The notes beneath the pieces are model-generated. The model ran no database searches, had not been told where the DNA came from, and was given only the letters and a program-made list of their open reading frames with translations. A DNA stretch of 64,000 nt from Enchytraeus crypticus. Its lineage: Eukaryota > Annelida > Clitellata > Enchytraeida > Enchytraeidae. Of the stretch, positions 6,817 through 62,945 are shown piece after piece. Location of the stretch: assembly GCA_905160935.1 (NCBI GenBank), contig CAJHZI010000379.1:161001-225000 (forward strand), given 5' to 3'. Position numbers and translations under genes: made by a program. Position 1 is the stretch's first letter, and the number at the start of each line of letters is the position of its first letter.

Positions 6817-7018
6817 CAGGGCGAGTAAAACAATGATTACACCTGTAAAAAGTTTGAATATCTCAGGCTATTGTTAATATTTTCCAATAAAACTTTTAAC
6901 AATTACTAAAAGACTAATTTCTGATGGGGTGGCCAATTTTCATCCATTTTGGTACACAAATTGGCCAGTTATGCAAGTTTCAGCAGAGCAACCCCCCATT
7001 ATTACCTAAAAATGGCGT
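6817..7018 (+). repeat. left terminal inverted repeat of the mariner-like element
   Basis: Matches the reverse complement of 7361-7561 with scattered substitutions. Shared words include TGATTACACCTG, GAATATCTCAGGC, TTGTTAATATTTTCC, GGGGTGGCCA and GTTTCAGCAGAGC. Confidence 0.88.
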
Positions 7019-7400
7019 AAAGCACTTCCTGCAGTTCTCTCTTGTTGTTAGGCTTCGGCTGATGTCTCCGATAGAGATGCAGCATGGTTCCCCAGATATG
7101 ATAATCCGGAGGATTATGATCGGGTGAGTTTGGAGGCCATTCATTCTTCTTGATGAAATTCGGGTTTCTCTCACTGATCCATTCCTGTGCATAACGAGAT
7201 GCATGAGCCGGAGCACCATTCTGCTGAAAGATGAAACCATTTGGTAGAAGAGCATAGCAATCATGTTCAACAGCTCCGCAAGCAAAGTATTGACGTAATA
7301 CTGAGAGTTTACCTTTACTTTCTCGTCAATTAAGTGCAATCTGCCCTTATCGTTGTAGCAAACGCCGTTTTTAGGTACAAATGGGGGTAGCTCTGCTGAA
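7019..7400 (-). pseudogene. mariner transposase core, frameshifted
   Basis: On the minus strand one frame gives GVCYNDKGRLHLIDEKVKVN and YYVNTLLAEL. After a one-base shift near 7270 a second frame gives GFIFQQNGAPAHASR, then EWPPNSPDHNPPDYHIWG and KPNNKRELQEVLYA. These are the conserved blocks around the second and third catalytic residues of mariner transposases. The usual D of QQDGAPAH is N here, which should abolish catalysis; the later D of NPPDYH is present. The first catalytic D region and the helix-turn-helix domain are absent. The longest open frame on this strand reads partly out of phase. A dead fragment inside the element. Confidence 0.85.
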
Positions 7401-7816: not shown

Positions 7817-8859
7817 GAGAAGGCCTTTGACAGGATTGATTGATTGGATAACGATGATGAATATCTTAAAAAGAATAGGAATTTACTGAAGAGATAGACG
7901 ACTAATTTTAAACTTGTACATGAATCAAAGAGCAGTAATCAAAATCCAACAAGAATACTCTGAAGAAAGTGAAATAGGACGTGGAGTAAGACAAGGTTGT
8001 AGCATTTCGCCGCTGCTGTTTAACATTTACGCTGAGGTAATGATGGAGGAAGCCATGGAAGACTTGGAAGAAGGCATAAAAGTAGGAGGGAATTTGTTAC
8101 AAGATGTACGATTTGCAGATGACCAAGGAATGGTAGCGGGCAGCGAGATTGGATTGCAGAAGATAATGGATAGGCTGAATGATACGGCCCTAAGATATGG
8201 CATGAAGATTAATATAAAAAAGAACAAGGTTATGAGTGTCCAATAATAAAAGTGAAGTTAATATCACAATAAATGGTACGAAATTGGAACAGGTAAGGAG
8301 TTTCAAATATTTGGGTCATACTATAACCGATAATGGGAAATGTGAGACAGAAATATGCAGTAGGATTGCACAAGCTAAAGCGGCCTTTGGTAGTAGAAAA
8401 GAACTATTAACAAAAAGTCTAAAGAAAGATAAAATATAAAGATAGTGAAAACTTTGGTTTGGACCACGCTATTGTATGGATGTGAAACATGGACCTTGAG
8501 AAAGGAAGATATTAGGAAATTGGAGGCATTGGAAATGTGGATTTGGAGAAGAATGGAGAGGATTAGCTGAACTCAAAAGGTTACAAATGAGGAAGTCCTG
8601 GAGAGAGTTGGCACAGATAGACAGTTGATAAATGTATTAAGAAATAGGAAGAAGAGATGGATAGGACACATTCTAAGGGGGAAAGTCTATTAAAAGAGGT
8701 CATAGAAGGTAGAATGGAAGGAAAAAGAGGCGGGGGCAGGCCGAGATTAGGTATGTTAGAAGATTTACAGACCCACTCATATGTGGAAATGAAGAGGAAG
8801 GCGGAAGACAGAGAAGAGTGGAGGCATTATGTACCATGGACCTGCCAGTAGGCAGTGCA

Positions 8860-10846: not shown

Positions 10847-10855
10847 TATATAAAA
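10847..10855 (+). promoter_or_regulatory. TATA-like box of the engrailed gene
   Basis: TATATAAAA lies about 115 bp before the ATG at 10968, giving a plausible transcription start near 10880 and a short leader. TA-rich DNA makes chance matches common. An acceptor-like TTTGCAG at about 10943-10949 leaves open an upstream non-coding exon instead. Confidence 0.35.
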
Positions 10856-10967
10856 ATTAGAGAAAGAGGGACTTAAATAAATATAGGTAATCGTAGTGTG
10901 ATACGAACTGCAGTGAATTTTAAGCCCTAAAACGTCGCATTATTTGCAGAAAGCGTCATTTTTCAAA

Positions 10968-11127
10968 ATGAACGGCCTACGTACGGTCTTAGGAGACGTT
11001 ACACACAATTCAGAAGATAAACCTGGATTTCGAATCGCCGACATATTGAGTCCAGACTTTGGATACAGACGCACTGAGGAGAAGAATTTGGCGATGTATA
11101 AACTCTTGCTTCAACTTCACTATCCAG
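10968..11127 (+). CDS. en: engrailed exon 1 (EH1 repressor motif)
   Basis: The start is ATG at 10968 with A at -3; upstream in-frame codons reach back only to a TTG. The exon encodes 53 residues and one base. EH1 is F21..I23..I26 L27 S28 P29 D30 F31 G32. The donor is CAG|GTATTT. Confidence 0.85.
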
Positions 11128-12898
11128 GTATTTAACCACATTTACTCCCATCCAATGTAACCATAGAGTGGCTCACATATGCAGTGGACATGTAAGAAAC
11201 GTCTATTCCTTATTGTGTATGTTCATAAACTAGTTTTCTATACAGTGAAAGCGATCCCTATGTAGTGTGGATCACAGTGGAATATACCAACCGTAAACTG
11301 TAAGAGGAACTAACGGCAGGAACTAACGACGGTAATGGGAAACATCTCAGACATTTACAGATATGCTGTACATCAAGGTTAGATGAAGGCTTAGATTTCG
11401 TGATGGGATCATTTATTGATCAGTGTCATACTGCGCGCGAAAGTAAAATTTGAATATGATTAGTTGAAAATTGTATTTTCAATTTTGTAGGAATCTAAAT
11501 TTAGTAGAAATTTAAAGAAAGCGAACAACTGAGAGATATAATAAGGGACACATGCACATCATGAACATGTAGACTTTGCTGAGTCCCATTCAAGTATCAG
11601 CAATATTGTTGAACAGTTCTGATTAATAAAGGTTCAAGTGAGGGTCAGTTTGGATGAAGTTTGGATTGGTGGATAGTAATTGAAGGTTTTCTTGATTGAT
11701 ATCAGATATCTTGTTTGATACCAGCTATCTTTTTCTTGACTGATATCTGATATCAAGTATCTTGAAGACTTAACTATTTCTTGATTAAAAGCTATTAAGT
11801 GCACCAATAATAAGATTGATACATTTTACTTCAGAAATTAATATTGGAATTTTGACGATCATTATGTATATTTTTCGCTGTTAAATTCTATAGTTTTGAG
11901 GATAATAAATAAACAGAAATGCAGATTATTTTTTACTGCCCTTCTTGAAGAAACTCGAACTAAGCAATTAAGCATCAGTAAAAATAATATGTATTTAGAT
12001 GAAAAGGGATTTGGCGCTTTGAATTCATTAGACGAATTGATCGATGATCCGATCATTACTGAACGTGACAATTGCATCAGAATTAATGAATTTTTTCGTT
12101 AGGCCTGACATCTGATAGGGAAAGAGGAGGTAACAGATTTTATTGTTTAATTATGTACATCACTACTGTAAAATTGGAATATATTGCACAATTCCTATAT
12201 CATTTGAAATCTAATCTAGTTTGCCCTAATCAATTTATTTTATCAGAAATATAAAATCTAATGCGATAGTTGTTAATGATTTTACAGGTAGACTATTCTC
12301 GAGCGACTCGAGGCCATTAATCAGTGATCCAAGAAATAATAATCTAAGCGAGGGTCTGTGTATCCCAGAAGACCACAAGAAATATCTCTCCGGAAACCTT
12401 CAGCACCTGGAAAGCTCTCCCTCCCATCCCTCCCCTTCTTCCCCTGAGGAATACTCCTGGTTAAAATCTACCAGATACTCCAGCAGGATTTCATCTAGTA
12501 AGTAGGGCGCTCATTCACTTTATAGAAGCTTAATATTGCGTATGAATAATAATAGTCTCAATTTCCAAAATGTATAATATTTCTTTTGATAGCATTTTTA
12601 TATTTTAAAATTATTACGGAAAAAAATGAAGATATCTCTCTCTCTCTCTCTCTTAGTGCACTGCCTACTGGCAAGTCCCTGGTATATAACGCCTCCCCTC
12701 TTCTTTGTCTTCCGCTTTTCTCTTTCATATCCATATTTTTAGTGGGTCTTTAAATCATCCAACATACCTAATCTCTGGTTGCTTCTGCCTCTATTTCCTT
12801 CCATTCTGCCGTCTATGACCTCTTTTAATAGATTTTCCCCAACATATGAAGATATACAGTATGTGTATATATTTAGAAGAGTTAATTATGTGCAATTC

Positions 12899-12934
<36 letters not shown>

Positions 12935-13957
12935 AGAGAAAGAAAGAGACAGACTGACAAAGAAAGACAGAGAGAGAATATTTTACACTGAATAATTAGA
13001 ATATTGCATTTTGTTCATGGCATCCAATGTGTTGAAGAATTACTGGTTCGTAGGAGACTATACAGAAACAGTTACTCCACACACATGTGAGATTTCATTT
13101 TTACAAGATACTCTACATAAACAATCTTTATCGTCTTCACAGTACATAATGAATAAGTAATCAAATTCACCAACATCTTCAAAGTCGCCTCTGTTAATCA
13201 AAATCGATTAGAAAGTTTGGAAAATATTAAGCAAATGCGTTATTTAGCTAACTTCTGCGAAACTCTATTTTCAATTAACGTATGTTTATTAATTAAATGA
13301 TAAATAAATCATAGTATTACTTAATGTTACCTTAAGAGCAATTTAAATAAATAAAATCATCTGGTATGGAAGATATAGGAGCTGTAAAATTAACGTCTAA
13401 GTTTAACGTCTGTTTCTGTTTCGCAAGGGATACTGTCAGAGACGGCTGAGATTCAAACCCATGGTCCCCTGTTTCTCAGGCAAGAGTGCCATCCATTCGG
13501 CCATCCAACCATATAAAGCATACTTTTGACTATAAACAATTAAAAAATGATAAAACATGTACAATTTTGCCATTGTCTAATTTTAGAAACTAAACATCGA
13601 AAATCGAAGCGAAAACTCTCCTCTGGGTTGAATTCTCCTCCGGTTTCAATTTCTCCACCTGATCTCACTGGAGCGGAGGTATTTGATCGTGCTGGAGTCT
13701 TAGCAGAACATGAAACCTGTGAAGACAGAAGACACAGGACGGCTTTCACTTCCGAGCAGCTCTCTCTTCTCCATCAGGAATTTATCCGCAACGCCTATCT
13801 TACCGAAGATCGCAGGCATTACCTTGCAGGCAAACTAAATTTGACAGAAACTCAAATTAAAATCTGGTTTCAGAATCGAAGAGCCAAGTTAAAGAAATCG
13901 ACGCCCGCCTGGGATGCGAACTCTCAGGGTCTAAATTCATCGATACTTTCAATGTAA
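10968..13957 (+). CDS. en: engrailed-class homeobox gene, three exons, divergent
   Basis: The CDS joins 10968-11127, 12288-12497 and 13587-13957 (741 nt, 246 residues). Both introns are phase 1 with good GT/AG sites. Engrailed is a nuclear DNA-binding repressor used in segment, neural and shell/skeletal patterning. In order the protein has EH1 (about residues 20-35, [16 protein letters not shown]; the Groucho-binding motif); EH2 (about 111-123, [11 protein letters not shown]; the Exd/Pbx contact); a basic KHRKSKRK stretch; and the homeodomain (170-229) with R5, W48, F49, Q50 and N51 all present. The [12 protein letters not shown] and AKLKKS blocks match engrailed. The intron after EH2 is where engrailed genes are classically split. 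Differences: position 52 is R instead of the typical K, the linker is short, and EH5 is reduced to a weak SQGLNSS. It could be a fast-evolving orthologue or a second paralogue. Class call secure, orthology less so. Confidence 0.9.
11128..12287 (+). other. engrailed intron 1
   Basis: 1160 bp, GT...TTTTACAG, phase 1. Includes imperfect repeats of TTGATATCAGATATC type at about 11690-11765 and no mobile element. The overlapping short open frames at 11862-12102 on both strands have no support. Confidence 0.8.
12288..12497 (+). CDS. en: engrailed exon 2 (EH2 motif)
   Basis: 210 bp, open throughout in the frame set by exon 1. Encodes a Ser/Pro-rich linker, then [16 protein letters not shown], which aligns with EH2. 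The donor A|GTAAGT is near-perfect. Confidence 0.87.
12652..12840 (-). mobile_element. LINE family 1, 3'-end fragment
   Basis: On the minus strand this covers the last ~190 bp of the LINE (GGGGAAAATCTATTAAAAGAG through the CTGCC/GGCAG hairpin to AGTGCACTAAG), followed on its 3' side by (AG)n, seen here as (TC)n at 12635-12651. It lies inside engrailed intron 2, antisense to the gene. Confidence 0.88.
12902..12975. repeat. (GA)n microsatellite
   Basis: GAGA tract with A- and C-containing interruptions in engrailed intron 2. Confidence 0.93.
13430..13517 (-). mobile_element. SINE family C head (tRNA-like), copy 1
   Basis: On the minus strand GGTTGGATGGCCGAATGGAT holds an A-box-like TGGCCGAATGG, followed by GGGTTTGAATCTC as a B box. 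The same GGATGGCCGAATG head recurs at 40452. The body is short and diverged. It could instead be a degenerate tRNA pseudogene. Confidence 0.5.
13587..13957 (+). CDS. en: engrailed exon 3 (EH3 and homeodomain)
   Basis: Acceptor TCTAATTTTAG|AA. Begins with [11 protein letters not shown], then a Ser/Pro linker, then the homeodomain starting DRRHRTAF and ending AKLKKS, and a 17-residue tail ending SSILSM and TAA. Recognition helix [18 protein letters not shown]. Position 52 is R where engrailed proteins typically have K. Confidence 0.93.
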
Positions 13958-16900
13958 TTTACCACACTTTCTAATTTTGATAAAGATTCCGTTGTTTATG
14001 TTAATTATGCCCAAATGAATTGGATGATTAATATACAACAATCATAGTGAAGCGTACACACTACTAGTATTAATTATTAAATAATCGTCATACTAGAACT
14101 TGAATTTGTCTAGTTTTTGGAACAAATTGATCAGACCCAATTGTTTAAGGAGTTATTTTAGGTTTCATATTATGAGGTAGACTAATTGTCATGTTATCTG
14201 CTGTTTTAAAAATTCAGTACAAAGTCTAATATATTATCTATTTGGTTGATTTTTAAATAGATTCTATTTAGGTTCCATTAATAGTAGATGTATAATAATA
14301 ATTAATAATAGAGATATAATAATAATTGAAATAGATCCTTATGAAGCATGTCTACTAATGATTTAGTACAAGAAATCGCTAACCACAATTGTGTACAACT
14401 GAAGAATTGGTTTGCTCCATGCAGTGTTAACGCTAGAGATGTTTAGATATGAGTAATTATATTTAATTGGCAAGTTGTTTGGCCAGAAAAAACAGCGTGA
14501 AATAGAAAAAGATGGTAATTGTTATTTTAAAAAAGTTAAATTAATTTCACGAAATTGTCTTGCTTGGTTATATTTGTTCCATCTCTGCACTGCTCAGTAG
14601 GCTTCTTACAATAAAGTTAACATTTGTTGACATTGACGCATGATTTACGACAATAATGTTTAATAGTTATGGCATCTCGATAATACAATAAAGAATGCAA
14701 GAAATAAGTATATTTAGCACTACTGCATAACGAAAAGCGACGTTGTATATATTTATATATATGTGTAATAAAAATGTTACACACATTCACACACTGTTAT
14801 TTCTCCATGGAAATACTTAAAAACCTCTCATTTTCTGATCGCAGTTTTTGGAGATTCACTATGAAATTAACGCAGTTTTTTCTCAGAGGTGGTCGAACCC
14901 CTTCCCAACCCCCTTTCCCCGCAAATTCAACCCCTGTCTTAATAGAGAACATTATAATTTTATTTGTATAAGGTAGTCAAAACCTGATTCATTAAGTGGC
15001 TAAGACATTTTGCTATGCTAATAGTATTGATGTGTTTAAATTTGCATAGCTGATAATTTTGAACCACTGAATTGCCTTTTCATAATTAAGTCTATAGTCT
15101 ATTTACAATGTAAGTTAAATGAAAGAATGTGATATGATATAGATCAATATCATCAATGTTAATGCTCTAGATTTAATTTAACGTCCAATATTAACTTTTC
15201 ATGATATTTTTTCCTATTTCTAGAAAGATTATAAAATGTTAAGATGGCTAATATTTAAATATTAGACATAATAAAATTGTAGAAAATTGAATATTTTAAA
15301 ACTATAATTAAATCATAATTTAACAAATTTACAGTTTAATATCTTATCTAATACATCTTTTAAAAGTTAATTTTTAAAATGTACATTTTATGTCAATAAC
15401 TAATAAAAAATAGTTTTCATTAGCCTACTTATCTCACTCGTCTTTGCGATTTGTTATTTCTGAAGTTCCATTTAAAGCATGCAGCATAGTTTATTATATA
15501 GGTTAAATTGTATGGAATTATATAAGGATATGTAGTACAATATACCATTTACGTTGGCATAAAGAAACCTTCAAATCTTGTAAAATAATTAAGACTCTTA
15601 ATGGCGTTCACACTTCATGAAAAATATATGAACGGTTTTGTTTTAGAATTAGAAACTTCAATTTATAACTGCTTTTCAAAATCCACTTAATATTTCATTG
15701 TGCCGTGGACCTGCCAGCTAGTTACGATGTTTCTTGACATATTTTAAAACAATAATAATAAAACAGGAACGCTTATAGTTATAGGTAACGCTTGTAGTGA
15801 AATCGTATACTCATCGAACTTTAATTATTGCCATTGTGACGTGAAGCAGACCTCCCATGCTGTCATTATGGGCTCGAGCAGCTGTATAACAGCTGTACCT
15901 CTATCAATCATAATTAGCCCAACAATCGACGGTTATTAGTACTCATCAGTTTTCACTAGGACGCATTAAGTACGTATTCACACAACTTGTACCATTATTC
16001 TTGAGTCAATCTGACTAATATTTGTCAAGGGGAGGACTGGGCGACCCCTGAAATATGGCCCATTTAACAATTTGAAAACGCAGAATGCCATTGCAATGGA
16101 CAATATTTTCTAATTATTTTGGGTTTACCATTTGATATGAACGAACTATTTCAAACGCAGAATTTTATTTTCTGCTCTGTTAATTTGTTGACTTTAAAAA
16201 ATATTTTGTGTGATATTTTGAACGCCCTTTATTAAAACTGTTCGAATAGCGCCAAGATGATCGTCGATAAAGAACTTAAGGAGCCGTAATGAGCTTTATC
16301 TTGAGATCCTTTGAACGGTTTCAACTTGCCGATTATATCTTTGCAGAATCTATTGAGAAAGGAGAAAGCTCCCATGTCTAATCTATCACGTGTTGAGCCA
16401 TTGAAAGCGTTGCACTAAATTGAAAGGCATTTTGTCACGAACATGAAACCTGTAATAATCACTTGAAGATAATTCATCGTACTGGGAAAGTGCTTAATGG
16501 GGCGGCAGGGCTCTCTGTTGTGTCACATCCAATGTGTTGTTATGTGAGCCGGCTGGATACATACAATTAGAGACTCCCAAGAACTAATATCAGTATCAAT
16601 TTATTGCTAATTGTTTGTTTATTTGAATAATTTTGAAGTTTGTTGAATGAAGATTAGGCTACATGTTTGCACAAAATAACTTTTATTAGGTAATATGCAT
16701 TACCTAATGCATTATCCCTTACACGATATGCGCATATTTAATTTAGGTCTATTTCTTTTAAGCTAATGAAAATTCCAATCTTGCATGGCAAATATGCAAA
16801 TTAAACAATTGAAATCTGTGCATCTAACGTCATAGTACTTTAAATTCACATTTTAAACGTTACAACTTTATACTGATTTCAATTGTCAGCAGTGTCTCGT

Positions 16901-17347
16901 GACTCTAGGCAATAGGAGTCACAGTTCCTTTCATAACTTCTTGTTTAAGTTTCTATTTATTAACTATAATTAAACGAATCAGTTTACACAAACGTACATT
17001 ATCCTATATTAAAATAATATTGATTTAATCGCTTCCATATAATTATGGCTAATTGAATTCTATACACGAAGAAGCTATTGCTTTTTGAATGAAGTTATTG
17101 GGGATATAGATTTCTTGACATCATTATTGATTAAGTAATGAACTATAAATCGTTCTCTGTTTGCAATCCAACATCCAGATCTCTTAATATTTTGGCAAGG
17201 CTTATTAAATTTACCTGAATACACCTTCTATTCCAAAATACACCTAGCTTATCTAAGGCCTAACTAGAAGTCTAATTAAGAAATTAAATGAAGAGTTTAG
17301 TCGTATAGGCATAGACATTAGACAGTGTAGACACGTAGCATCTCTCA
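13958..17347. other. 3' flank of engrailed and long non-coding stretch
   Basis: AATAAA words at 14610-14615 and 14687-14692 are candidate poly(A) signals. The frame at 14774-14971 has no domain. A short LINE-3'-like word at about 15700-15720 is too brief to call. No other structure seen. Confidence 0.45.
14610..14615 (+). terminator. candidate poly(A) signal of engrailed
   Basis: AATAAA about 650 bp after the stop; a second AATAAA lies at 14687. Common in AT-rich DNA, so weak evidence. Confidence 0.25.
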
Positions 17348-17541
17348 ACGATAGGCACTAGTATAACGATATGCACTAGTATAACGATAGGCACTATTAT
17401 AACGATAGGCACTAGTATAACGATAGGCACTGGTATAACGATAGGCACTGGTATAACTATAGGCACTGGTATAACGATAGGCACTGGTATAACGATAGGC
17501 ACTGGTATAACGATAAACACTGGTATAACGATAGGCACTGG
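17348..17541. repeat. 18-bp minisatellite
   Basis: About 11 units of GGTATAACGATAGGCACT with few substitutions (CTAGT for CTGGT in the first units). An 18-bp period keeps both strands open; the minus-strand frame of Val-Pro-Ile-Val-Ile-Pro repeats is a by-product. Confidence 0.93.
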
Positions 17542-23118: not shown

Positions 23119-24332
23119 TGTCAAATTGTAGAAAATTCAGGAACTAGGGTCGAATGGGGTAAGATGGACAGCGGGGTATGTTGGACATGGGATATAAAAT
23201 TAGAAATATCACATTTTGCGGATGTCCATGTTGCCCCATGCAATGTGTAAGATGGACACATAACATTACTGTAAACGAATTAATTTGAGGCAGTGTAACA
23301 GACTACCGGAAGGGGCGTGGCTTCGGAAAGATTGTAAACACATACTGAAATCACGTGTTGATAGAAAATCAACTTAAGAAGGTACGTACAACGCCTAAGG
23401 ATTTTTTGAAACTACTTAAAGTGGAATTAAATTCATTTCTAATATAGTGTACATAGGTAATCTTTGTTGTTTAAAATTAGTTAGTAAGCTAGGCGTACAT
23501 GACCATCTCGCTTCACGACAGCTATATTATGGGTCATGGTAGGAATATTGTCCATCTTACCCCGTCATGATGGAAAGCGTCCGTTTTCAATAATAATTAT
23601 AATATCATATAATTACTGTTTATCGAGTTATGGGCAATAGTTGCACTTTTAAAAATGCTAATAGCATGACAGCCAATAACTGAGATGGTAAAATATGCAC
23701 TATTTCACAGGTGTCCATCTTACAAACGTACTACCACTCGCGGAGATTGGTCACCAGACAACATGGAACAGGCTTTGCTTGCTCTTGATGAGGGACAGCC
23801 TCTTCTGGCCTGCGCAAGGAATTTCGGTGTGCCATGTAATACGCTGCGACGACATTGGCTTAAGAAATTAAAGAAGGTTCCAAGTTCTCGCCACCTCGGT
23901 CGTGACTCAATTCTTGGTCTTGCTGTTGAAACTGAACTTGTTCAGTATATCTTGAAGCTAGAGGAGAGAGGTTTCGGCTTGACTCCAACAGATGTTCGGG
24001 AACTGACTTACGAATATGCTGAAAGGAACAGCATCCCCCACAAGTTTGATCGAGAATTGAAAGTAGCGGGCAAGGACTGGTGGGCTGGATTTCGCCTTAG
24101 GCATCGTCAGCTGCTATCTATCAGAAAGCCAGAAGGTCTCTCACTGGCACGAGCCTCTGCCATGAATCGACCAGCTATAGAGAAGTATTTCGGCATCCTG
24201 GAGAAGGAGGTGAGACGTTTGGGTCTTACTGAGAAGCCTGGCTGGATATACAATTGCGATGAGAGCGGGTTGAGTCTGGTACCGGAGACGAGCAAGATAG
24301 TTGGACGCAAAGGGAAGAAGAATATATACCAG

Positions 24333-24646
24333 GTAGGCTAATCACTGTTAGTCTATGATCAAAGCATAGGTCCAAATAGATCTACTAATCAAAATGTAAG
24401 CATAAGAAGCATAAATGGTTTGGCATAAGAATCCTCTCTCTCTCTCTCTCTTAGTGCACAGCGTAGGCCTACTGGCAGGTCCATGATATATAACGCCTCC
24501 ACTCTTCTCTGTCTTCCGCTTTCCTCCTCATGTCTATATATGAGTGTCCACACATAAGAAGCCTAGGCTAGCCTATGCTATATATTTTGCTTTCAATTAA
24601 ATTCATATTGAAATTTGGTTAAATGAAGTTTTGTTGTCTTTAACAG
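24333..24646 (+). other. intron of the pogo transposase gene
   Basis: CAG|GTAGGC...TTTAACAG|GTT, phase 0, falling between KKNIYQ and VTSAERG, a junction continuous in related transposases. It contains a LINE fragment at 24451-24550. Confidence 0.8.
24451..24550 (-). mobile_element. LINE family 1, 3'-end fragment nested in the pogo intron
   Basis: Minus strand: GGAAAGCGGAAGACAGAGAA, TGGACCTGCCAGTAGGCC, then GTGCACTAAGAGAG, with the (AG)n tail seen as (CT)n at 24433-24450. Nested within the transposon, so it arrived later than the transposon or was carried with it. Confidence 0.88.
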
Positions 24647-25257
24647 GTTACCAGCGCAGAGCGTGGAATCCTCACAACTGTCCTGCCTTGTTTCAACATA
24701 ACAGGATACTACATGCCGCCCATGGTCATCTTCAAAGGCAAGCGACTCTCACCAGGCTTAAAATCAGATATGCCACATGGTACTCTTCTAACCGTATCTG
24801 ATACCGGCTATATGAATAAGGATCTGGCTTAAGCATTTCAAGGAGCACCTAAAATACCCAGAATTACCAGCTCTTCTGATTCTTGATGGACTTTGCTCAC
24901 ATGTCAAGGCTATTGATGGACTCCTATATGCTGAACAAAATGGCATATCAATCATATGCTTGCCCCCGCACACCACTTACTGGACTCAACCACTGGATCG
25001 CAGTTATTTCAAGCCTCTCAAGTCTCATTATGGCCACGAATGTCGTAAATTTATGCGCGAGCATCCGGGTAGAGCCATAACAAGATACGATTTTGGGAAG
25101 CTGTTCACCGCTGCCTATATGACCACATCAACCATGGCTATATCTGTGCAAAAGCTTCCGAGCTACAGGCATTTACCCTCTCAATGAAGACATATTTGTG
25201 ATGAGGTGCTGATCGTCCATTGCCTCTTGCTGGTGACCAGAGAGAGATTAATAACGG

Positions 25258-25500
25258 AAGTGTCGCTGTATCGGATCCAACGGGAGGCGGGAATCAAGAA
25301 CAGTGTCAGACTGTGGCTGTCAATGATGCAGGACAAGAGTAGACTAGTGGTGGCGGTGTTGGAGATGGTGAAAAGGATGATATTGGTGGCGAGACTAGTG
25401 GTGTAGCTTCATCGGGTCCAGCGGGAGGCGGGAATCAAGATCAGTGTCAGACTGTGGCTGTCAATGATGCAGGACAAGAGCAGACTAGTGGAGGTAGTGG
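25258..25500 (+). repeat. tandem duplication in the transposase linker
   Basis: About 140-bp period: GGGAGGCGGGAATCAAGA occurs at about 25280 and 25424, each followed by CAGTGTCAGACTGTGGCTGT and GATGCAGGACAAGAG. The first copy then has TAG where the second has CAG. Confidence 0.88.
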
Positions 25501-26431
25501 GGAACAGAGTGGAATTGATGGAGAGCGCAAAGTGTCCAACAGATTTGAGTTGATGAAGCCTGTGCCAAAGAAAGTGTTCTGCGAAAAGAAAGTTAATGCA
25601 AAACGTCGTGCAACAACATCTCGTCTGCTGACTGGGGAGAAGCACATAGCAAGTTTTCAAGAGGAGCTTCGATTGTCTGCCGAAAATTCCAAAGAAAAAA
25701 GCAACCAGCCTATCAAGAGTAGATCTCTGTCAGTGGTAAAGAAGAATGCGCTGGACACCGGGAGAAAGAGAAAGTTGACATGCAGAGAAGACAAACCAAG
25801 AGGTAGAAAACCTAAACCAGCGATGGCAGTACCGAAAATAAAGAAAACAGTGAAAGAAAAAGAAAAAATGAACAGGAGTGCTCTGGTGACACCTGAAGTC
25901 ACTGTTTGTTGTGCAGGGTGTGGAGTGCCAGAAGATGAATCGGAAGAACCCTGGCTTGGTTGCTGTATATGCTAAACATGGTATGAAGTATCTTGCGCTG
26001 GCATGCTGGGGAAGCCCAAAGAAATCCAGGATGCCTTTGTCTGTATGGACTGTCAGTAGTGTATAGGCCTATTGTGAAACATCAAGTTTTTAATGCTCTA
26101 TGTCCGACTTTACTTCAACCTATAATTGTAGACTATGCAGGCGCATAATGCTAATAGGCTAACAATATTCATAATATATGTCCGTCTTACCCTGTTATGA
26201 TGTCCATCTTGCCCCTTTGGTCTGTCTAAGATGGACACTGTTAGTAGTTGGTTATAAACACTAATATGATATGCATGACATTATAGTGGCTACTACGGAT
26301 ATTATTATTTGTTTTCATACACTAGTATTAAATATATACGTGTAACATAAAATAGTTCAATTTGATTGAAAATTACTCGTAAATTCATTAAAAAGAAGCT
26401 TAGAATGTCCATCTTACCCCACCCTACCCTA

Positions 26432-27130
26432 ACCCTTCATATTTTCTTCAGGTGATCGGAAGCACACATGGGTAAAAACATAAGTTATAAACACTTTTAA
26501 AAGTCCATAATTCATTCAAACATAACCAAGTACTTCAAATAAAAGAAGTAAGTACCATATAGTCACATTTCCATCAATATTTAAAAGACTGTAAGTGATG
26601 TGTTGATACTAAGTAAATAATCATATTTAAAAGCAATTATTTAGTAAGCTATAACTCATTTTAGGCTATTGTTGCAGCGGTTGTTTGATTAGACAGCTTG
26701 CAGAGTAAACAATGTTCAGCAGGAGGACACAAGTTCCAATCTCACCCGAAACTGTTTCTGTTATTATGTATGTGATAAAAACGCAGAAATTAAAATTATT
26801 CTTTCATTAGCTACCTGCTATCATTCTTTCTCAAATGTTGTTGGCAGATTTCTGGACCAGATGCCCCGGATCCAAGCAATCCTTAAGACTTGCTTTAAGA
26901 TTAAGCGGTCACTAAACTCACGCTTACGTGTTTCCGTTTTCTTGCAATCCTGCTATATTTGCCGGTTGGATCCATTACTTATACCTCTATTGATTTTAAA
27001 TTGTTTATTTCTCTTTATAAATTAATATAAAAATGTTTGACTAATATTTCTTAGTATAAAAAGAGCAAACAGATAAGGATTTTATTAGAATGCTAAATCA
27101 ATAATGAATGAGAAACATGAATTCATATGT
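26432..27130. other. non-coding stretch
   Basis: A weak tRNA-like word at about 26730-26760 is not enough for a SINE call. Nothing else seen. Confidence 0.4.
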
Positions 27131-27966
27131 TTCTCTCTTAGTGCACTGCCTACTGGCACATAACGCATGTCCCATGGTACATAACGCCTCCACTCTTCTC
27201 TGTCTTCCGCTTTCCTCTTCATTTCCACATTATATGAGTGGGTCTTTAAATCATCTAACATACCTAATCTCGGCCTGTCCCTGCCTCTTTTTCCTTCCAT
27301 TCTACCTTGTATGACCTCTTTTAATAGACATCCCCCTTAGAATGTGTCCTATCCATCTCTTCTTCCTATTTCTTAATACATTTATCAACTGTCTATCTGT
27401 GCCAACTCTCTCCAGAACTTCCTCATTTTTAACCTTTTGAGTCCAGCTAATCTTCTCCATTCTTCTCCAAATCCGCATTTCCAATGCCTCCAGTTTCCTA
27501 ATATCTTCGTTCCTTAAGGTCCATGTTTCACATTCATACAATAGCGTGGTCCAGACGTAAGTTTTCACTATCTTTATCTTTGTGTCTTTCTTTAGACTTT
27601 TTGTTAGTAGTTCTTTTCTACTACCAAAGGCCGCTTTTGCTTGTGCAATCCTACTGCATATTTCCGTCTCACATTTCCCATAATCGGTTATAGTAATACC
27701 CAAATATTTGAAACTCCTTACCTGTTCCAATTTCGTACCATTTATTGTGATATTAACTTCACCTTTATTATTGGACACTCTCATAACCTTGGTCTTTTTT
27801 ATATTAATCTTCATGCCAAATCTTAGGGTCGTATCATTCAGCCTATCCATTATCTTCTGCAATCCAATCTCGCTGCCCGCTACCATTCCTTGGTCATCTA
27901 TCTGCAAATCGTACATCTTGTAACAAATTCCCTCCTACTTTTATTCCTTTTTCCAAGTCTTCCATA
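27131..27966 (-). pseudogene. non-LTR retrotransposon reverse transcriptase, 5'-truncated (LINE family 1)
   Basis: The longest open copy of the family: a 204-codon minus frame (27302-27916) followed by a second frame to about 27130. Motifs in order: IDDQGMVAG (catalytic box, shifted), MKINIKKTKVM, NGTKLEQVRSFKYLG, ICSRIAQAKAAFGSRKEL, then LYECETWTL, LEALEMRIWRRM and RKKRWIGHILRG. The C-terminal block [11 protein letters not shown] leads to the 3' hairpin. A 4-bp insertion falls in the FADD box (GCAGATAGATGACC against GCAGATGACC at 7813). The start and endonuclease are missing. Near-identical wording with the copies at 7813 and 50455 suggests fairly recent activity. Confidence 0.92.
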
Positions 27967-41859: not shown

Positions 41860-42745
41860 TCTTAAACGGTGCCGATTCGGTGATAAAAAACAGTTAGGCA
41901 AGATGAAAAAGTCTATGGCGCGACAACCTACAACGGAAAGTGGAAGTAGTAAAAGATGAGAGAAGATCAGGAGGCAGAGCGTTCCAAACAGTAGGACCTG
42001 AAAAAGAAAACGTATGTCTATCTAACAAAATGAAAACATTAAGAATTTTGAGAAGTTTTTGCATCGGAAAGACGACGCTTGCGATAAGTTTGATATTGGA
42101 TTAGGAGATCAGAGAGGTAAGACGGTTTACCAAAGAGAAGTGTTTTGAAAGTTAACAGAGCAATTTTATACATAATTCTTTGAACCACTGGAAGCCAATG
42201 AAGATTATTAAGCAAGGAACTAGAGGAGGCCTGCAGCCTAAAGGATCGACAGACAACACGTGCTAGAGAATTCTGAACCTTTTGCAAACGCATGAGAGAA
42301 GAAGGTAGGCCATAGAGCAATGAACTACAGTAGTCAAGTTTAGAATGAATTATGAGTTATCAAGAATTATGGATGAATCTTTATCAAGGAATTATCGTAT
42401 CTGTCTGAGTTGACGGAACTGGAAGAAAGATGAACGACAGACAGATGAGATATGAGATTTGAAGTCATGATTTTTCCTCAAATATGACACCACGGTTTTT
42501 AGCCTAGGGAGGAGGTGTGAGAGCAAGATTTTGAAAATAGATGGAAGAATTGTCTACTTTGGTTCTTTTCTGGGGTGTGGCGATTAAAGGATATTCGGTT
42601 TTAGAAGGATTGACAGTGACACGATCGCAGTAAGACCATGAATAAACTTTGGCAAGAACAGATGAAAAGTGTTGAAATTTCTGATAATAATCTGAGCTAG
42701 AAAATGAGATGTACAGCTGAGTATCATCAGCATAGTGAAATTTAG
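41860..42745 (-). pseudogene. CR1/L2-like LINE reverse transcriptase fragment
   Basis: Minus strand, in order across several frames: FHYADDTQLYISFSSSDYY (catalytic box), VNPSKTEYPLIATPQKR, KAKNRGVIF, then LLYGLPSSLMRLQKVQNSLA with LHWLPVVQRIMYKIALLTFK and PSYLSDLL. It closes with PTVWNALPPDLLSSF. This is the standard order of the RT palm, thumb and C-terminal blocks of CR1/L2-type LINEs. Frameshifts and stops separate the blocks (for example near 42480 and 42040), and the 5' half is missing. It is a different family from LINE 1: the RT box is YADDTQLY rather than FADDQGMV. Confidence 0.85.
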
Positions 42746-43010
42746 AATAATAATACCTGTATGTTTAGAAAAATAATAAACTTAAAATTTAATATTAATA
42801 TACAGGCCAAATATAACTTTAATATATATAAACCATATATTTTAATATCTTTAAAATATATATATAATATATATTATATAAGATATGTACATGTAGGCCC
42901 TATATCATATACATGCATATACAGTACAGTATTATATATTTACATATATATATATATATATACTATATAAATATACATATATATATACATGTATATATAT
43001 GTATATATGT

Positions 43011-50454: not shown

Positions 50455-50910
50455 GATCAAGATAAAGAGAAAGATAATGAAAATTTTGGTTTGGACCACA
50501 CTATTGTATGGATGTAAAACATGAACCTTAAGGAAGGAAGATATTAGGAAACTGGAGGCATTGGAAATGCGGATTTGGAGAAGAATGGAGAGGATTAGCT
50601 GGACTCAAAAGGTTACAAATGAGGAAGTTCAGGAGAGAGTTGGTACAGATAGGCAGCTGATAAATGTATTAAGAAATAGGAAGAAGAGATGGATAGGACA
50701 TATTCTTTGGGGGAAGGTCTATTAGAGAAGTCATAGAAGGTAGAATGGAAGGGAAAAGAGGCAGGGGCAGGCCGAGATTAGGTATGTTAGATGATTTTAA
50801 GACCCACGCATATGTGGAAATGAAGAGGAAAGCGGAAGACAGAGAAGAGTGGTGGCATTATATACCATGGACCTGCCAGTAGGCAGTGCACTAAGAGAGA
50901 GAGAGAGAGA
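50455..50910 (+). pseudogene. LINE family 1, 3' portion of the ORF
   Basis: Translates in mixed frames to LEALEMRIWRRMERISWTQK, GTDRQLINVLRNRKKRWIGH, then RMEGKRGRGRPRLGMLDDF, MKRKAEDREEWWHYIPWTC. The hairpin and (AG)n follow. The catalytic RT part is missing. Closely similar to 8450-8862 and 27131-27600. Confidence 0.9.
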
Positions 50911-62150: not shown

Positions 62151-62612
62151 TTATTCAGTTTGTTGATTGCCGTGGGTATGGATAATTTTAACGTGTCAAT
62201 CTAAGCCAACTCATTAAGTGGACGCTTAGATGAGTTAAGTTTTGCAATGTAGCGTGAAGATTCAATCTCAATCATTAGATATGTCGACGCTGCAGTGTGA
62301 TATTGATGATATGCAGTGATTACCTTTCAACAAACTAATTCAAATCTTTATTTCCCCTTCTATGTTAGCAGCTTTGAATTTTCTTTCCGACAGTTAGCCT
62401 ATGTCAAATTGACTCATCAACTTTTCATTTAAATCTAAGCCATACACCGAAAAAAGGAGCTCTGTTTATGCGAATTTTTATTGTGAGTCCTTCGTTTGAC
62501 CATAGTCAGCCATAATTATTCCTGTTTTCAAATACGGAGATGTAATGGCTTCGAGTGCGCCAGTGGAAAGTAGTTTCAATGATTTAGAAAATAGAATTTT
62601 GGTCATAAACAG
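62151..62612. other. non-coding spacer
   Basis: Pyrimidine-rich AG acceptor-like sites occur at about 62370 and 62392, but no convincing exon follows them. Confidence 0.4.
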
Positions 62613-62945
62613 GTGTCACTCAGAGTGGATGATTTCTTGATGACTCACGTAACCGCAATTGATGGTGCAATGAAACTATCTGCAGCTCGAAATTTGCGCA
62701 CACCCAAGATTTCTACTGCTGAACTAAATCTTGCCAAACTTTCTTCACGAGGCGGATATACAGTCAAAGAATATCAGAGTCATAGTGAAGCAATATCTCC
62801 TGCTCGCCAAGTTCCAGATGCAGATGACGATGTAGAAGGAGATTACTGTCCCAGTAAAGTAATACATCCTGATCCCCGGATCATACATGCAGACGACGAC
62901 ATAGAAGATGACAGTCCTACAGGGAGTCCCTGGATCGAGTTATAA
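62613..62945 (+). CDS. possible terminal exon, acidic C-terminus, unknown protein
   Basis: Open for 110 codons to TAA and begins exactly at an AACAG|GTG boundary, just after an in-frame TAA at 62607. There is no ATG, so if real it is an internal or terminal exon entered in phase 0. Composition is protein-like, not simple repeat: VDDFLMTHVTAIDGAMKLSA at the start and two related acidic segments at the end (DADDDVEGDY and HADDDIEDDS). I recognise no family. It does not join in phase with exon 3 of the secreted-protein gene. No canonical AATAAA follows closely. Confidence 0.35.
   Translation: MSLRVDDFLMTHVTAIDGAMKLSAARNLRTPKISTAELNLAKLSSRGGYTVKEYQSHSEAISPARQVPDADDDVEGDYCPSKVIHPDPRIIHADDDIEDDSPTGSPWIEL

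Follow-up and report, generated by a model that had tools for sequence, protein, structure and literature searches.

A diverged but apparently intact engrailed-family gene predicted to act as a repressor

Positions 10968-13957 on the + strand of the window, the whole 64-kb stretch of DNA analyzed here, most likely hold a complete, intact, fast-evolving engrailed (En)-family gene that would act as a repressor. We give family membership and mechanism, taken jointly, a probability of roughly 85%. Engrailed is a conserved developmental regulator, a developmental switch protein. The gene found here is real and probably functional. It encodes a 246-aa protein from three in-frame exons, with phase 1 at both junctions. 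A sequence-only reading of this DNA had proposed a divergent but intact engrailed gene, and this is still the best reading, given the ranking of PDB chains, the homeodomain tree, the EH1 and EH2 motifs upstream of the homeodomain and the in-frame splice sites.

Coding exon 1 (10968-11127, +, 160 bp) holds EH1 and supplies 53 full codons plus one base of codon 54, ending at the donor CAG/GTATTT. The start ATG at 10968 is the first ATG downstream of an in-frame stop and has an A at -3. Intron 1 (11128-12287, +), which lies between EH1 and EH2, is a phase 1, GT...AG intron of 1160 bp with a GC content of 0.322. Coding exon 2 (12288-12497, +, 210 bp) begins after the acceptor TTTTACAG and ends just past EH2 at the donor CTA/GTAAGT. 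Intron 2 (12498-13586, +; 1089 bp, phase 1, GT...AG, GC 0.333) follows directly after EH2, which may match the classical position and phase of the engrailed intron. A literature search found no statement of engrailed intron phase. Coding exon 3 (13587-13957, +, 371 bp) begins after the acceptor TCTAATTTTAG and contains an EH3-like basic block, the rest of the linker, the homeodomain, a 17-residue tail and the stop. In the reading frame used, the only stop in exon 3 is the last codon, ending at 13957, and the other two forward frames have six stops each. Coordinates, splice sites and the length of 246 aa all confirmed the earlier proposal of three exons joined in frame with phases 1 and 1.

The choice of splice sites was compared with the alternatives. 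Within the scanned ranges, the frame stays open with 12 donor/acceptor pairs at intron 1 and six at intron 2, counting those chosen. Judged by eye, the chosen pairs have the best consensus and the other in-frame pairs are poorer. The alternative pairs for intron 2 would delete the basic block after EH2. GC content is 0.44-0.47 in the exons compared to 0.32-0.33 in the introns. The chance of 246 stop-free codons comes to 9e-9, a figure that makes the case look too strong because the exon ends were picked to stay open. A TATA-box-like sequence at 10847-10856 (+), some 120 bp before the start codon, is a candidate core promoter by pattern match only, and candidate poly(A) signals are located at 14076, 14610, 14687 and 14767. 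A bacterial promoter scan was also run and has no meaning for an animal gene.

The homeodomain (13721-13903, +) was assigned to the engrailed class using Pfam (PF00046, E=1.6e-21, residues 171-227), the PDB search, the tblastn span and the tree. Homeobox_KN and HTH_NDX also matched the protein, both below their Pfam cut-offs, while no engrailed-specific model was matched in the Pfam scan of the 246-aa protein. NCBIfam, a prokaryotic library, gave no match, and no relatives of the engrailed-type protein were found among viral contigs. Among the best 60 of 138 phmmer matches in the PDB, the best chains were engrailed. The top match in these 60 was a two-domain engrailed construct with 117.3 bits in all, and single-domain engrailed chains ran from EN2 (71.6 bits) and fly En (67.5 bits) down to 58.6 bits. 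Below them in the same 60 matches were dualENH (57.1 bits) and the best protein of another name, Hox-A9 (55.7 bits); one 44-residue engrailed fragment ranked lower, at 46 bits. When the ORFs of exon 1 and exon 2 were used to search the PDB, no En chain was found, and each gave one unrelated match (E 0.0042 and E 1).

A maximum-likelihood tree was built from 35 homeodomains: the query, two from the PDB and 32 other references, with Nedx and Ro not included. The query and four En sequences were split from the rest with 100% UFBoot, and the query was placed outside the four. The AU test on the homeodomain alone, which is weak both ways because a constrained tree may still keep En nearby, rejected one of eight alternative groupings, NK1 (p 0.017). 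The groupings it did not reject were NOTO/EMX/VAX (p 0.40), PRD (0.233), EVX (0.216), GBX (0.109), Hox/ParaHox with MNX, EVX and GBX (0.082), Hox/ParaHox (0.073) and MNX (0.056). A homeodomain phylogeny had been suggested as a check on the sequence-only reading. The placement of En among homeobox subclasses has been reported to be unstable (PMC2211742).

Individual residues of the homeodomain point in both directions. Diagnostic columns were defined as those invariant in four En sequences (vertebrate and fly) and shared by at most 4 of the 30 others. Only one of these eight residues, E28, is kept, and P4, R15, K17, Q32, E37, N41 and K52 are lost. This loss is the strongest point against filing the gene as a plain En. 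Since the columns rest on four En sequences only, the seven losses were read as divergence and not as exclusion. Among all columns invariant in the four En references, 33 of 42 are kept. Fifteen contact or core positions were listed, and 14 of them are as in En, including R3, R5, I47, Q50, N51 and R53; the exception is K52R.

The exons upstream of the homeodomain add two motifs. Their scores are only indicative, the profiles having been built from seven motifs for EH1 (one row dropped) and four for EH2; the simulations were 15 first-order Markov sequences of 64 kb. An EH1-like motif of 13 residues (11025-11063, +) has the core FxIxxIL in the form FRIADIL, and would bind Groucho. It is the top match in the window, scoring 38.3 compared to 23.7 for the next best in the 64 kb and 29.1 for the best of the 15 simulations. 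An EH2-like motif of 16 residues (12449-12496, +) is the top EH2 match in the window, with a score of 34.0 compared to 31.8 for the next and 32.5 for the best of the 15 simulations. Taken alone, it is a modest match with a narrow margin over the simulations. The motif has the correct strand and the expected place, with EH1 upstream and the homeodomain downstream, and its end coincides with a splice donor. It has one tryptophan, and canonical EH2 has two. The elements follow each other as EH1, EH2, basic block and homeodomain, which is the canonical engrailed order. The motif scores and the in-frame splice sites agree with the earlier claim that EH1, EH2 and an engrailed-type homeodomain stand in the right order. 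The assignment to En rests on the homeodomain, EH1 and EH2 together, because the homeodomain alone is not decisive by the AU test and the diagnostic residues.

The spacing between these elements was also considered. The stretch from EH1 to EH2 is 75 residues, which is short compared to canonical En. The sequence-only reading had described a short, diverged linker and tail. The tail after the homeodomain, at 17 residues, is indeed short next to that of canonical En, but the linker from EH2 to the homeodomain is 46 residues and long compared to the roughly 16 residues found in vertebrate and fly En. The tail contains NSQGLNSS, and its likeness to the core of EH5 is in QGL only.

The window is about 34% GC and contains transposon remnants and AT/AG microsatellites; its introns and homeobox mark it as probable animal DNA. 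A tblastn search with 35 homeodomains (the query and 34 references) found no other homeobox gene in the 64 kb with a match below E 0.16; the remaining matches were short stretches with E 0.16-0.97. No RNA families or tRNAs were found in the window, ARAGORN having been run with the bacterial code. The ORF list (minimum length 55 aa, entropy above 3.7) has 172 entries, of which 117 were scanned against Pfam, giving one weak match (E 0.009). The other 55 were omitted by eye and were mostly low-complexity, transposon-like, overlapping or part of this gene. A separate Pfam scan covered ten long ORFs, mostly drawn from those 55. Four matched, all to transposon domains, and six had no match. The domains were RVT_1 twice (one below the cut-off), HTH_Tnp_Tc5 just below the cut-off, and DDE_1, together with a further weak match below the cut-off.

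Several mobile elements and repeats can be described. Remains of a pogo/Tigger-like transposon are found at 23670-25975 (+), with a Tc5-type DNA-binding domain (just below the cut-off) followed by DDE_1. By eye, they appear to be interrupted at about 24350-24560 by sequence like the 3' end of a LINE family present in the window. Three fragments, apparently of this one family by eye, are at 7890-8848 (+), 27088-27934 (-) and 50525-50879 (+); the first and the second match reverse transcriptase, the latter below the curated cut-off. A piece that by eye is like the 3'-end repeat of the same family lies inside intron 2, at 12561-12749 (-). No relative of the LINE protein was found in the genome contigs, viral contigs or plasmids searched, and none of the pogo-like protein in viral contigs. 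ORFs at 41897-42764 (-) resemble by eye a reverse transcriptase end from another LINE, distinct from the first, with no Pfam match at 42039-42356. An open stretch at 7005-7325 (-) resembles by eye the end of a mariner-type transposase and had no Pfam match. A minisatellite at 1380-1715 consists of 13.4 copies of a 25-bp unit and also shows longer periods, at 151 and 176 bp. At 17347-17541, an 18-bp unit is repeated 10.8 times with 93% match; both strands read through it, each giving a repeat of six residues. A 116-aa open stretch at 62595-62942 (+) has an acidic repeated segment and no Pfam match, and may represent an exon or a remnant of an old transposon.

If the gene belongs to the engrailed family, its likely action can be outlined from known proteins. 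The homeodomain would bind TAAT-core sites through R5, I47, Q50, N51 and R53, as in engrailed, and its DNA preference should be the same as that of engrailed. EH1 would recruit Groucho/TLE, and the targets would be repressed. Groucho-dependent repression is the likeliest mode because the EH1 core FxIxxIL is intact. FxIxxIL has been described as the core of EH1 (PMC4262259). Repression by fly En is carried by EH1 through Groucho (PMC4901127), and the role of EH1 in known En is also described elsewhere (PMC1310626). In known En, EH2 confers the interaction with Pbx1 (PMC4901127). The partnership with Exd/Pbx is probably weakened in the present protein, because its EH2 keeps one tryptophan instead of two.

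Two explanations would place the gene outside the functional engrailed family. It could be a member of another ANTP-class family, such as Nedx, Ro, EVX, GBX or NOTO, with EH1 present by descent or convergence and the EH2-like motif by chance. The seven of eight non-En placements that the AU test leaves open, the loss of seven of eight En-diagnostic residues and the small margin of EH2 over simulation would all fit, and EH1 is common to many homeobox families and not specific to En (PMC1310626). We nevertheless consider this improbable: En leads the PDB ranking by about 12-16 bits among the best 60 of 138 matches, the tree joins the query to En with 100% UFBoot (in a reference set without Nedx and Ro), and the gene has EH1 with an ILxPDFG extension and EH2 in the engrailed order, the latter followed immediately by an intron. 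A decaying engrailed pseudogene that stays open by chance is very improbable. Although the diagnostic residues are lost and the linker and tail have diverged, the 246 codons contain no stop or frameshift, all four splice ends are usable, the EH1 core is intact along with 14 of the 15 contact or core positions, and GC content is higher in the exons than in the introns.

Taking the gene as an engrailed, the balance tips slightly toward a diverged second En copy of a kind so far reported in lophotrochozoans alone, in which case the same genome should also carry a canonical En. This reading gains in likelihood because a diverged, lophotrochozoan-only En paralogue has already been published (PMC5322547). 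Lophotrochozoa are reported to have several En paralogues, one of which groups with the En of other bilaterians (Paps et al. 2015, PMC5322547). The second paralogue was confined to lophotrochozoans, and the simplest origin proposed for it is a duplication within that group followed by divergence; in oyster, expression of en2 peaks in the early gastrula, when the shell gland appears (PMC5322547). That work does not settle the relationship among the lophotrochozoan En copies. A second En copy may not be general, since a brachiopod engrailed paper makes no mention of one in its main text, by term search (PMC4999882). Another explanation, which competes with the paralogue part only and not with En membership, is that the gene is a fast-evolving orthologue with no other engrailed in its lineage. 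Short engrailed proteins do exist, as shown by oyster Cgengrailed-1 with 229 aa (PMC7793958). The window also lacks a second homeodomain at the tblastn threshold given above. En is strongly conserved among animals, however, and the known diverged second copy fits better, so we regard a sole orthologue as somewhat unlikely. Quite improbable, in our view, is an ancient second engrailed that extends beyond lophotrochozoans and is uncoupled from its cofactor, keeping Groucho and DNA binding while the Exd/Pbx partnership is largely lost. The lost EH2 tryptophan and the long linker would be the signs of that uncoupling. If the host were an arthropod or deuterostome, the duplication would be older than the protostome or bilaterian radiation and would have been widely lost since.

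A second copy that keeps its DNA contacts and repressor motif, while its diagnostic residues and cofactor motif erode, would show which parts of engrailed are dispensable after duplication. The intron positions and EH motifs reported here are also characters that could help to resolve the relationships of lophotrochozoan En copies.

Compared to canonical engrailed (fly en/inv and vertebrate EN1/EN2), the gene has 38-39 of 61 homeodomain residues identical. It differs in the loss of the first EH2 tryptophan, in the 46-residue linker, in the 17-residue tail with QGL only, and in having an intron between EH1 and EH2. We know of no intron at that place in vertebrate or fly engrailed genes. Oyster Cgengrailed-1 (CGI_10012208), with 229 aa and a homeodomain at 141-203, is near in size to the 246 aa found here (PMC7793958). 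It is reported to cluster with other mollusc engraileds (PMC7793958) and may be either the en1 or the en2 of Paps et al. The lophotrochozoan En paralogue represented by oyster en2 (PMC5322547), compared by description, is a diverged second En copy, an account that the present gene fits.
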